Assembly (NCBI GenBank): GCA_903822595.1
Contig: CAIJPS010000003.1
Coordinates: 1-39,852 of the forward strand
DNA from: an uncultured Chlorobiaceae bacterium
GTDB taxonomy: Bacteria; Bacteroidota; Chlorobiia; Chlorobiales; Chlorobiaceae
Length of the DNA stretch: 39,852 nucleotides
Direction: 5' to 3'
A model generated the notes under the pieces. That model was not told the DNA's origin and did not search any database. It worked only from the letters and a program-made list of their open reading frames with translations. Below, in pieces: positions 33,417-37,338 of this stretch. The position numbers were made by a program, and so were the translations under genes. Numbering within the stretch: the stretch's first letter is position 1; each line of letters begins with the position of its first letter.

Positions 33417-34394
33417 ATGAGTAATGTTATATGCAGTTGTCTTTTAGGTGATAATGCAAAGGTAAGGTTGCGGCTCTCACAATTGCTGCACAGTGAGATG
33501 GAATCTATTTATGGAGCTTTTCCTGATGATGTTTCCGATGATATCTGTGAGGTTGAATTACAGGGTTGCCGGCGGGAGTTTTTTATCAACAATACAGGAG
33601 TTCCATTCACTATCGGTCTACAGGTTATTATCGAATCTGACGGTGGTTACGATTTTGGCGTTGTTTATTCGACTGGTCAGATTGCCCGCAAAAAGCTCCA
33701 GCTCAAAGGGCTCGACAAAAGTGGCCAGGAGTGGACTGCCGTGTTACGGGTTGCAGACGAGAACGACATTCTGGCTATTATTGAACTAAAAAAAAGGCAG
33801 GCGGAAATTCGGGATGTCTGTCTGAACAAGATTAAAAAGCATGAACTTGATCTGAAACTGGTTGATGTGGAATTGCGCATGGACCAGCAAAAATTGTCGG
33901 TCTACTATACCTCGTCACATAGGGTGGATTTCAGAACACTTGTGCGTGACCTTGCCGGAGAGTTCAAGGCAAGAATCCAGATGGTGCAGATTACAACACG
34001 GGAGGAGGCCAGAAGGGCCAATGCCTTCGGGCCATGTGGTTGCCTTCTTTGTTGTTCGAGCTGGCTACCGAAAATCCATGCCAACCCCTTTGCCGAAAAA
34101 TCTCAATATGCTGAAGCCGCAGGTAATGAGAGCCACGCATTCAATATAACCGGGTTATGTAACCGTCCAAAATGCTGTCTGGGTTATTCGAAACATGAAA
34201 AAGGGTGCCGTTCCCAATCGAACGGTAACGCAACGCTCCCTGTGGCAGGCAGCAGGGTTTCTACTCCAGAGGGGCCTGCTGTTGTTGAAAGCGTTGATGC
34301 CCAGAAAAAACTGGTCTGGCTTCGTTACCTGAAAAGCGATCAGACACGCAGACTTCCACTCAACAAGTTCAATGCCCTGTTTGTCAAGAAATAA
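33417..34394 (+). CDS. PSP1-domain protein (YaaT/RicT-like)
   Basis: A 325-residue protein. The PSP1 core includes FTIGLQVIIESDGGYDFGVV and VELRMDQQKLSVYYTSSHRV, then DFRTLVRDLAGEFKARIQMV. The conserved cysteine pattern FGPCGCLLCCSSWL and GLCNRPKCCLGY follows. In Bacillus the homologue RicT/YaaT joins an Fe-S-containing complex affecting RNA processing and development; in other phyla the role is unclear. A C-terminal extension (about 270-325) carries an SH3-like VAGSRVSTPEGPAVVESVDA. It is transcribed alone and converges on the zinc-ribbon gene. Confidence 0.9.
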   Translation: MSNVICSCLLGDNAKVRLRLSQLLHSEMESIYGAFPDDVSDDICEVELQGCRREFFINNTGVPFTIGLQVIIESDGGYDFGVVYSTGQIARKKLQLKGLDKSGQEWTAVLRVADENDILAIIELKKRQAEIRDVCLNKIKKHELDLKLVDVELRMDQQKLSVYYTSSHRVDFRTLVRDLAGEFKARIQMVQITTREEARRANAFGPCGCLLCCSSWLPKIHANPFAEKSQYAEAAGNESHAFNITGLCNRPKCCLGYSKHEKGCRSQSNGNATLPVAGSRVSTPEGPAVVESVDAQKKLVWLRYLKSDQTRRLPLNKFNALFVKK

Positions 34395-34442
34395 GCACCG
34401 CGCTTCTCTTGCATCAATCGCAATTTCCGGATCTCAACAGGC

Positions 34443-34489
34443 GCAGCACAGCCAATTCTCAGTCGCTACTGATTATTCGGCTGTGCTGC
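34443..34489. terminator. Long inverted repeat between convergent genes
   Basis: GCAGCACAGCC (34443-34453) pairs exactly with GGCTGTGCTGC (34479-34489). Inside the loop TCAGT and ACTGA form a second small stem. A run of seven Ts follows on the plus strand about 12 nt later, so it may end the PSP1-gene transcript. The repeat overlaps the last codons of the zinc-ribbon gene on the other strand, so it is partly coding. Confidence 0.5.
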
Positions 34490-34710
34490 CTTGCTGCGAC
34501 GTTTTTTTCAACCGGGCGCATTACTTTGCCGCACTCGGGACAAAAATCGTATACAAACATATACCGCCAGCTATGGCCACAGTCAGGGCAGGTAATATTG
34601 AGAGGATAACCACATTTCATACAAAACTTCTCGTCCCCGCCCGTAACGTTTTGACACCCTGGACAATGAAAAGCGTTCATTTCGGTCTCTTTTTTGTGGA
34701 ACTGAATCAT
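34459..34710 (-). CDS. Small double zinc-ribbon protein
   Basis: An 83-residue protein with four CxxC pairs: CPGC, CMKC, CPDC and CPEC. They make two rubredoxin-like or double zinc ribbons within residues about 16-61. The start at 34710 is supported by GAGGAG 5 nt upstream; an internal ATG at codon 11 lacks such a site. Small proteins of this kind bind zinc and often contact nucleic acids or partner proteins; no specific role is visible. The tail after the second ribbon (RPVEKNVAARQHSRIISSD) is basic and is the part that overlaps the inverted repeat. Confidence 0.8.
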   Translation of the reverse strand: MIQFHKKETEMNAFHCPGCQNVTGGDEKFCMKCGYPLNITCPDCGHSWRYMFVYDFCPECGKVMRPVEKNVAARQHSRIISSD

Positions 34711-35075
34711 CTGTACTCCTCTCTTTTATTCGCTTTCATGTAAAGCAGAGGAGAGTTCATTGGTTGCGGAACATACGGTATCAATATAGTGAAAATATCG
34801 CTTTTTTCTGTTATGAGAGATTTCGATCCAGGTACAATATGGCGACGATAGCGACCCGGAATAACCGTTGAGTTGTTATATCGTATGATTTTCCTCTCCA
34901 GGCAGGGAATTTTTTTGTTGCTCTATTTTCTATATTGCAGCCTTGAACAGTAGAAAAGCATGAAGGCAGTTTCTTTCTCGGAAAGAGCCATGCTTTTTTC
35001 CCGATTATTTTTTCAGACCACTCTGCGGCGGAATATCATTTTGATTTCAGTGTAACCGTATTTTTCTTTTACCCA
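34711..35075. other. 365-nt intergenic region between the zinc-ribbon gene and metG
   Basis: This region holds divergent promoters for both neighbours and a terminator-like hairpin at 34954-34999. No convincing protein gene is present. A 31-codon ORF (34960-35055) begins inside the hairpin and ends 20 nt before metG, but it has no ribosome-binding site and unremarkable composition. A second possible ORF of about 10 codons starts at 34839. Confidence 0.6.
34954..34999 (+). terminator. Terminator-like hairpin in the metG leader (possible attenuator)
   Basis: AAAAGCATG (34954-34962) pairs exactly with CATGCTTTT (34989-34997). Inside, CTTTC (34973-34977) pairs with GAAAG (34981-34985) over a 3-nt loop. 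Six Ts follow the GC part of the stem on the plus strand. It lies 76 nt before the metG ATG and no plus-strand gene lies just upstream, so it may control metG or end a short RNA. No T-box motif was seen. Confidence 0.55.
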
Positions 35076-37184
35076 ATGCATCAGTTTACGAAAACCCTTG
35101 TTACAACAGCACTCCCTTATGCCAACGGCCCGGTTCATCTTGGTCACTTGGCGGGCGTCTATCTTCCTGCGGATCTTTATGTCCGCTATAAAAGACTTAA
35201 GGGTGAGGATATCATTCATATCGGTGGTTCGGATGAACACGGTGTTCCTATTACTATTACAGCCGAGAAAGAGGGCATTTCACCCAAGGATGTTGTTGAT
35301 CGCTATCACAAGATGAACCTTGAGGCCTTCCTGAAGTGCGGTATCTCTTTTGATTATTATGGCAGAACCACTTCTGAAGTTCATCATAAAACTGCACAGG
35401 AGTTTTTTACTGACATTGAGCAGAAGGGGATTTTTATACAAAAGAGTGAGAAGCTTTTTTTTGATCGCAAGGCTGACCGCTTTCTTTCTGACCGTTATGT
35501 GACCGGAACATGCCCGATCTGCAATAATACGGAGGCCAACGGCGATCAGTGCGAACAGTGCGGCACCCATTTAAGCCCGCTTGAGCTTATCAACCCGAAA
35601 AGCAAACTCTCTGATGCGACACCGGAACTTCGCGAGACCATGCACTGGTATTTTCCGCTCGGGCGTTTCCAGGAAAAGCTTGAGGGCTATGTGCATAAGC
35701 ATGAGGATGACTGGCGGCAGAATGTGGTCAATTATACCCATACGTGGTTGAAGCAGGGATTAAAAGATCGGGCTATAACCCGTGATCTTGCATGGGGGAT
35801 CAAGGTGCCTCTCGAAAGCGAAGAGGCTCTGGGCAAGGTGCTCTATGTCTGGTTTGATGCGGTGCTTGGCTATATCTCCTTTACAAGGGAGTGGGCCTTG
35901 GAGCAGGGGCAGAGTGAAAGGTGGAAAGAGTACTGGCAGAACCCTCAGTGCCGCCTTGTTCAATTTATCGGCAAGGATAATGTGGTCTTTCATACCCTGA
36001 TGCTTCCCGCAATCCTGATGGCCTGGAATGAAGGACGACAAAACGGCTGCTACAATCTTGCCGACAATGTTCCTGCTTCGGAGTTCATGAATTTTGAAGG
36101 AAGAAAATTTTCAAAGTCGAGAAACTATGCGGTTTATCTTGGCGAGTTTCTTGAGAAATTTCCGGCAGATACCCTGCGTTACAGTATTGCCATGAACTAT
36201 CCTGAAAACAAGGATACCGATTTCAGTTGGCAGGACTTTCAAAACCGGACCAACGGTGAACTTGCCGATACCCTCGGAAACTTTATCAAGCGGTCGGTTG
36301 ATTTTACCAATGCCCGCTTTGAGGGTGAAGTGCCTCATGAGTCTACTCCTGAAGAGTGGAGCGCTCTGGGAATCGACTGGCTGGAGAGCCTTGAGCAACT
36401 TGATTTGGCTTATGAAGGGTTTCATTTCAGAGAAGCAGCTTCTCTCGCCATGGATATTGCGAGGGCTGCGAACCGCTTCCTTACCCTTTCGGAACCATGG
36501 AAAGTGGTCAAAATTGATCGTGAGGCTGCAGCAAGAACGATGGCTCTCTCGCTCAACCTTTGTCATGCGCTTTCCATTGCCCTCTTTCCGGTCATTCCCG
36601 AAACCTGTAACCGCATTCATGCCATGCTTGGGTTCGAAGGGCGCATCGAAGAGCTTGTGACAACAGGGAAATCCCTTGTTGCTGAACTTCTTTTACCGGG
36701 GCTCAAAAAGGGGCACAAGATCAGCGGGAAGTCAGAAATTCTTTTTAAAAAAATAGAAGAGAGCGATATTGCGCCGGAACTTGCAAAAATTGAGGGACTT
36801 TTGGCTGATGCCGTAAAACGCGAGGCTGGAGCTGAACAGCAAAAGATGGAGTTCAAACCGGTAATCAGCTTCGATGATTTTTTGAAGGTTGACTTGAGGG
36901 TCGCACGGGTTATTGCCGCTGAAAAGGTTAAAAAAGCCGCTAAACTCCTGAAACTGCAACTGCAGGTTGGTTCCGTAACAAAACAGGTGCTTGCAGGTAT
37001 TGCCAAATACTATTCTCCGGAAGAGATGGTTGGCAAAAATGTGATCATTGTGGCCAATCTTGCCGATCGCACCATCCGTGATGACGTTTCAGAGGGTATG
37101 ATACTTGCTGTAGAAGGCGCTGACGGGAAACTTTTTGTCATAGAACCGGAAGGAAATGAAATAAATGGCGGACAGATACAATAA
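35076..37184 (+). CDS. metG: Methionyl-tRNA synthetase with C-terminal tRNA-binding domain
   Basis: A 702-residue class I synthetase charging tRNA-Met and initiator tRNA. The HIGH-type motif is HLGH at 21-24 and the KMSKS-type motif is KFSKS at 344-348. The connective-peptide zinc knuckle is Cys146, Cys149, Cys159, Cys162 (single-knuckle type), and the anticodon-binding helical domain follows. The last 105 residues (FDDFLKVDLRVARVIAAEKV onward) form the OB-fold EMAP-II/Trbp111-like dimerisation and tRNA-binding domain. The ATG has no strong Shine-Dalgarno sequence. The initiator tRNA gene follows 46 nt downstream on the same strand, and a hairpin in the leader may regulate expression. Confidence 0.97.
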   Translation: MHQFTKTLVTTALPYANGPVHLGHLAGVYLPADLYVRYKRLKGEDIIHIGGSDEHGVPITITAEKEGISPKDVVDRYHKMNLEAFLKCGISFDYYGRTTSEVHHKTAQEFFTDIEQKGIFIQKSEKLFFDRKADRFLSDRYVTGTCPICNNTEANGDQCEQCGTHLSPLELINPKSKLSDATPELRETMHWYFPLGRFQEKLEGYVHKHEDDWRQNVVNYTHTWLKQGLKDRAITRDLAWGIKVPLESEEALGKVLYVWFDAVLGYISFTREWALEQGQSERWKEYWQNPQCRLVQFIGKDNVVFHTLMLPAILMAWNEGRQNGCYNLADNVPASEFMNFEGRKFSKSRNYAVYLGEFLEKFPADTLRYSIAMNYPENKDTDFSWQDFQNRTNGELADTLGNFIKRSVDFTNARFEGEVPHESTPEEWSALGIDWLESLEQLDLAYEGFHFREAASLAMDIARAANRFLTLSEPWKVVKIDREAAARTMALSLNLCHALSIALFPVIPETCNRIHAMLGFEGRIEELVTTGKSLVAELLLPGLKKGHKISGKSEILFKKIEESDIAPELAKIEGLLADAVKREAGAEQQKMEFKPVISFDDFLKVDLRVARVIAAEKVKKAAKLLKLQLQVGSVTKQVLAGIAKYYSPEEMVGKNVIIVANLADRTIRDDVSEGMILAVEGADGKLFVIEPEGNEINGGQIQ

Positions 37185-37309: not shown

Positions 37310-37338
37310 AAGCCGCCTCTTCAAAGGGCGGCTTTTTT
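37310..37338 (+). terminator. Intrinsic terminator after the initiator tRNA
   Basis: AGCCGCC (37311-37317) pairs exactly with GGCGGCT (37327-37333) over a 9-nt loop, followed by a run of six Ts. It lies 4 nt after the tRNA and 26 nt before the NamZ-family gene, ending the metG/tRNA transcript. Confidence 0.9.

Follow-up and report, generated by a model that had tools for sequence, protein, structure and literature searches.

Intrinsic terminators that lie close to a promoter, within the 5' leader of a gene, are a general class of element. The leader of the methionyl-tRNA synthetase gene metG described here resembles them in having a hairpin and a U-run between a probable promoter and the start codon, but differs in that termination is a prediction and in that the hairpin is weak in one relative (L078). 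T-box leaders of aminoacyl-tRNA synthetase genes also place a terminator-like hairpin ahead of the synthetase gene; the metG leader departs from these in being too short before the hairpin and in having no Rfam T-box match. With ribosome-mediated leader-peptide attenuators it shares a short ORF that overlaps the hairpin, but the frame and length of this ORF are not conserved and it has no run of Met codons. For seven Bacteroidetes/Chlorobi genomes, no T-box is listed in the available portion of a published survey (PMC2494555). Among the open-licence titles listed, none concerns this metG leader.

Gene order around metG

The leader lies in a stretch of 39,852 nucleotides from an uncultured Chlorobiaceae bacterium (contig CAIJPS010000003.1, the whole stretch being referred to as the window), whose nearest named relatives are Chlorobiaceae. 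The features of the region are listed in Table 1.

Table 1. Features between ricT and metG in the window, with the flanking genes
Feature	Positions	Strand	Remarks
ricT (PSP1-domain protein)	33417-34394	+	Pfam PSP1, 1.5e-27; usual operon neighbour of metG
Small double-zinc-ribbon gene	34459-34710	-	Pfam DZR, 4.4e-9; between ricT and metG
Promoter-like block, putative metG promoter	34905-34937	+	33 bp, with TATATTG (34931-34937); basis: conservation
Terminator-like hairpin	34952-34999	+	T-run 34994-34999; basis: folding, hairpin scans, alignments of relatives
31-codon ORF overlapping the hairpin	34960-35055	+	Judged not functional; frame, start and length differ in L118, L078 and L056
Conserved U-rich stretch ahead of the metG start	35041-35075	+	Lacks a GGAGG-like ribosome site
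metG, methionyl-tRNA synthetase	35076-37184	+	702 aa; Pfam tRNA-synt_1g, 1.8e-160, and tRNA_bind

Among named loci (73 of the 80 returned were examined, 69 being scorable for both ricT and metG), the gap between the two genes was 5-105 nt in 65 of 69, where the metG starts of relatives were extrapolated from alignments and some gaps are wrong by a few nt. Larger gaps were found in the window (681 nt) and in L118 (669 nt), L078 (745 nt), L056 (1178 nt) and L121 (246 nt). This split in gene order is directly observed. Relatives of the zinc-ribbon gene occupy the gap of L118 (92.8% identity) and L078 (62.5%), while L056 has a different gene of 162 aa on the opposite strand (L056:1856-2344, minus), with only a sub-threshold Pfam match (DUF3996). 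As this other gene sits at the same position in the insert, the middle of the insert has evidently been swapped in L056, ahead of the common metG leader.

The loci L118, L078 and L056 belong to genomes G019, G069 and G009, the window being G000. Across 65 genomes of the genus, the right end of the insert was present in these four, and also in G002 as far as that contig reaches, to a point corresponding to about 34950. Because the right end is common to the four genomes despite the different middle gene of L056, the conserved block it carries is tied to metG rather than to the inserted gene. The contig of the G002 locus (L041, G002:C94) includes the promoter-like block but stops right behind it, where the base of the hairpin lies, by chance or through an assembly effect. 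Zinc-ribbon-like DNA was also seen in G074, G010, G023, G067 and G063, where the stretches examined contained neither a ricT nor a metG match. On a 52-tip metG tree, the four insert carriers fell inside a 10-tip clade (support 0.996), intermixed with six short-gap genomes at branch supports of 0.64-0.97. The simplest reading is probably that the insert was gained once and then removed, each time precisely, in two lineages.

The sequence-only reading had held that the metG strand has no upstream gene whose end the hairpin would serve. The gene just upstream is indeed on the minus strand, but ricT lies beyond it on the plus strand, and it directly precedes metG in most of the named relatives scored. 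Between the convergent ricT and zinc-ribbon genes is a second hairpin (core 34443-34489), far stronger than that of the metG leader: the fold of 34420-34515 reached -38.2 kcal/mol (z -5.63), a stability attained by 0 of 200 shuffles. This is probably a terminator shared by the two genes, and a similar inverted repeat was seen by eye in L118. On the other side of metG, a tRNA-Met gene (CAT) follows at about 47 nt in 68 of the 73 named loci, the remaining five stopping near or within metG. This tRNA gene has conserved promoter-like boxes of its own and is followed in the window by a clean terminator-like hairpin at 37310-37334.

The hairpin and its conservation

The hairpin of the metG leader was found to consist of an outer stem (34952-34961 with 34990-34999) and inner stems (34965-34967 with 34987-34989, and 34970-34974 with 34980-34984), with six T at its 3' side and 76 nt from its end to metG, as had been described from the sequence. 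A stable stem running directly into a U-run, as expected of an intrinsic terminator, is thus present in the window (-14.4 to -16.5 kcal/mol with T6) and similar in L118; in L078 it reaches just -5.5. The fold of 34945-35015 was -16.8 kcal/mol (z -1.98; 8 of 200 shuffles as stable), while with other ends (34938-35020) z was -0.98 and 33 of 200 shuffles were as stable. Scanning for a hairpin followed by a T-run, it was the top candidate in the 681-nt gap at -14.4, a value equalled or bettered in 30 of 500 dinucleotide shuffles of the gap. On both strands of the window, two intergenic sites were at or below -14.4 kcal/mol, namely this hairpin and that at 37310-37334, with genes crudely defined as ORFs of at least 100 aa. 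Seven in-gene sites are as strong, so that energy alone fails to mark out the metG-leader hairpin. The hairpin is real and exceeds chance by a modest margin. A repeat or mobile element was rejected as its identity, since a 181-nt query found only short, weak matches beyond itself in its own genome (best E 0.48).

Among the relatives, in the order L118, L078 and L056, identity to the window was 8/10, 7/10 and 6/10 for the left arm and 10/11, 11/11 and 6/11 for the right arm with the T-run. For the inner part it was 19/28, 10/28 (with 15 gaps) and 16/28, and for the stretch 35001-35040 it was 31/40, 25/40 and 24/40. Arms and T-run therefore outlast the loop and flanks in two of the three relatives, L118 and L078, despite the 15 missing loop nucleotides of the latter. 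The hairpin energy was -16.5 in the window, -16.4 in L118 (with the same outer stem) and -5.5 in L078; in L056 the hairpin when forced gave -8.6, and the free fold was another pairing of -17.6.

The consensus fold of the four rows shows the outer stem. Pairing cells made up 76.1% over the four sequences, a value reached by 308 of 500 column shuffles; with partners slid by 1-3 columns pairing was just 38.7-57.4%, although one of the rows had itself supplied the structure. One pair was altered on both sides, an outcome at least equalled by 337 of 500 shuffles, four sequences being too few to decide. The check for covariation in relatives that had been proposed hence returned arms better kept in two of three relatives, but no covariation above the shuffle control in the four aligned leaders. 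Alternative pairings seen by eye in these leaders were short and unshared.

Hairpins before metG are not rare in the family, but their sequences differ. Of 40 named loci with ricT-metG gaps of 30-246 nt, seven (L070, L103, L107, L109, L111, L120 and L121) had an intergenic fold whose stability no more than 2 of 200 shuffles attained, and the other 33 had no fold that strong. The seven are not independent, because by eye L107, L111 and L120 have one hairpin in common, with a similar one in L103. In L070, the gap fold is followed by a T-run.

Promoter-like block and leader

The conserved block is likewise observed directly, with identities to the window of 32/33 in L118, 31/33 in L078 and 27/33 in L056. 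In order of conservation it was followed by the stretch before the metG start codon (35041-35075; 32/35, 30/35 and 27/35 in the same relatives) and then by the stem arms (in L118 and L078). Identity was 10/14, 2/14 and 6/14 in the 14 nt just after the block, and 155/189, 101/189 and 71/189 between the zinc-ribbon gene and the block. As the best-kept part of the region is a promoter-like block just 5' of the hairpin, the metG transcript likely starts at about 34943 with the hairpin at its 5' end, the exact position being an assumption of 7 nt after TATATT.

The argument for a metG promoter comes mainly from conservation, because the -10 of the block fits but no TTTG lies at the usual spacing, and the block ranked only 297th of 39,814 positions (97th by -10 alone) with a matrix which was derived from the tRNA-Met gene and is overfitted to that one promoter. 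Upstream of tRNA-Met, a TTG-type box and a TA..TT box were found in all 69 sequences examined, with a spacing from TTTG start to TA start of 23 in 68 and 24 in one, the best-scoring pair being chosen in each. These boxes resemble the Bacteroides promoter consensus, TTTG and TAnnTTTG, as given in the accessible part of PMC7366714, where the -33 box is described as not found in Flavobacterium johnsoniae.

Of the 65 genus genomes, four (the window, G019, G069 and G002) carry the block within three mismatches, and with one copy in each it was rejected as a common promoter type. Wherever found it precedes metG, the G002 contig ending before that gene. A search of 86 family genomes with the 183-nt leader (E 0.01) matched nine. 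Five of these were the window and the metG leaders, complete or in part, of G019, G069, G002 and G009; in the other four the match was short (24-36 nt), and that in G070 (L138) falls in coding-looking sequence.

From the predicted start, the leader would measure 132 nt in the window, 131 in L118, 117 in L078 and 143 in L056. Since the hairpin begins about 10 nt from this 5' end, there is little room for an upstream sensor. With cmscan, the whole window at gathering score yielded three tRNAs only and no T-box or SAM riboswitch, in agreement with the sequence-only reading; between 34700 and 35100, seven matches with E up to 10 were weak and none was relevant, with no T-box or SAM riboswitch among them. 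A known Rfam family was accordingly rejected as the identity of the leader, there being no match at threshold.

The 31-codon ORF had been correctly located, but its suggested role, in which translation would melt the hairpin, is not borne out by the comparison of the four genomes. The start in the left arm opens 31 codons in the window and 27 codons with another stop in L118, is not listed in L078, and is a GTG opening 22 codons in L056. An ATG in the right arm opens 21, 17, 21 and 8 codons in the window, L118, L078 and L056, the 21-codon frame and stop being common to the window and L078. The window ORF contains two Met codons only and no run of them. No conserved short ORF with control codons was found, as starts, frames and lengths differ in all four leaders.

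Origin and role of the metG leader

From these comparisons, the best explanation, with an estimated probability of about 0.5, is that the hairpin region forms the 5' leader of a metG transcription unit specific to this lineage, with a separate promoter and probably a constitutive partial terminator. A gene inserted between ricT and metG would have cut metG from its operon, after which metG would be read from a promoter of its own at about 34905-34937. RNA begun near 34943 would fold the hairpin at its extreme 5' end, where hairpin and U-run may release some polymerases after about 57 nt or merely form a structured 5' end; the remaining polymerases would read through into metG, and trimming at the hairpin is taken as constitutive. 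This explanation is weakened by a block without the -35 of the tRNA-Met type, by a hairpin that is weak in L078 and replaced in L056, and by covariation that does not exceed shuffles.

The plainest reading has the hairpin either terminate transcription partially and constitutively or just give the RNA a structured 5' end, its main rival being a functionless hairpin: a chance inverted repeat drifting in an A+T-rich leader, in which selection keeps the block and the pre-start stretch. The 30 of 500 gap shuffles that do as well, z values of just -1 to -2, the weak or different pairing in L078 and L056 and the lack of covariation above shuffles all favour this rival. Against it speak the arms and T-run, which in L118 and L078 have changed less than the loop and flanks, and a pairing percentage above that of slid partners (with a structure taken from one row), and it is considered possible but rather unlikely. 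It is doubtful that termination at 34999 is controlled by a protein, by the supply of methionine or by translation of the short ORF. An aminoacyl-tRNA synthetase gene preceded by a probable promoter and then a terminator-like hairpin would suit such control, but only about 10 nt precede the hairpin, the ORF is unconserved with two Met codons, no Rfam family matched at threshold, no alternative pairing shared by the aligned leaders was seen by eye, and no T-box is listed for the seven genomes in the portion of PMC2494555 available. Of the attenuation proposed for metG, the terminator-like hairpin in a probable leader stands, while regulation by early termination is unsupported; with little sensor room, no shared alternative pairing by eye and covariation at shuffle level, a new mechanism likewise finds no support.

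The short RNA that had been envisaged from about 34740 (260 nt) finds no support, since only one promoter-like block is strongly conserved, and its end at about 34937 would leave an RNA of about 57 nt (34943-34999), with metG expressed by read-through or from elsewhere. A promoter-like block followed immediately by a terminator-like hairpin is what such an RNA would need, but its only unpaired letters, in the spacer and inner loop, are poorly kept (2/14 and 10/28 in L078), the hairpin is weak in L078, and the block always stands before metG where present (the G002 contig ending earlier), making a separate RNA quite improbable. Least probable is a terminator against upstream read-through, with the metG promoter downstream at about 35010-35039. 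The T-run does face in the metG direction and a weak promoter-like match exists there, but ricT is already trailed by the far stronger hairpin described above, the number of promoter-like matches (4) is what chance would give (3.8 expected), and the -10 of this match is not kept in L056.

The leader, with its putative promoter and partial terminator, probably belongs to the everyday machinery of gene expression, and nothing points to a new methionine sensor. It is very improbable that it represents a new, very compact regulated attenuator, gained at the ricT-metG split, in which termination would be decided without an upstream RNA sensor by ribosome entry, a protein or polymerase speed. If that were true, the Chlorobiaceae would have evolved terminator-like hairpins ahead of metG on at least two occasions, and regulated termination would mean a very short attenuator in a group for which the available part of PMC2494555 lists no T-box in seven surveyed genomes. 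The locus offers a small natural experiment: a tRNA-synthetase gene has been severed from its usual operon by an inserted gene and has apparently acquired a promoter and leader for itself, and both arrangements occur among its close relatives.
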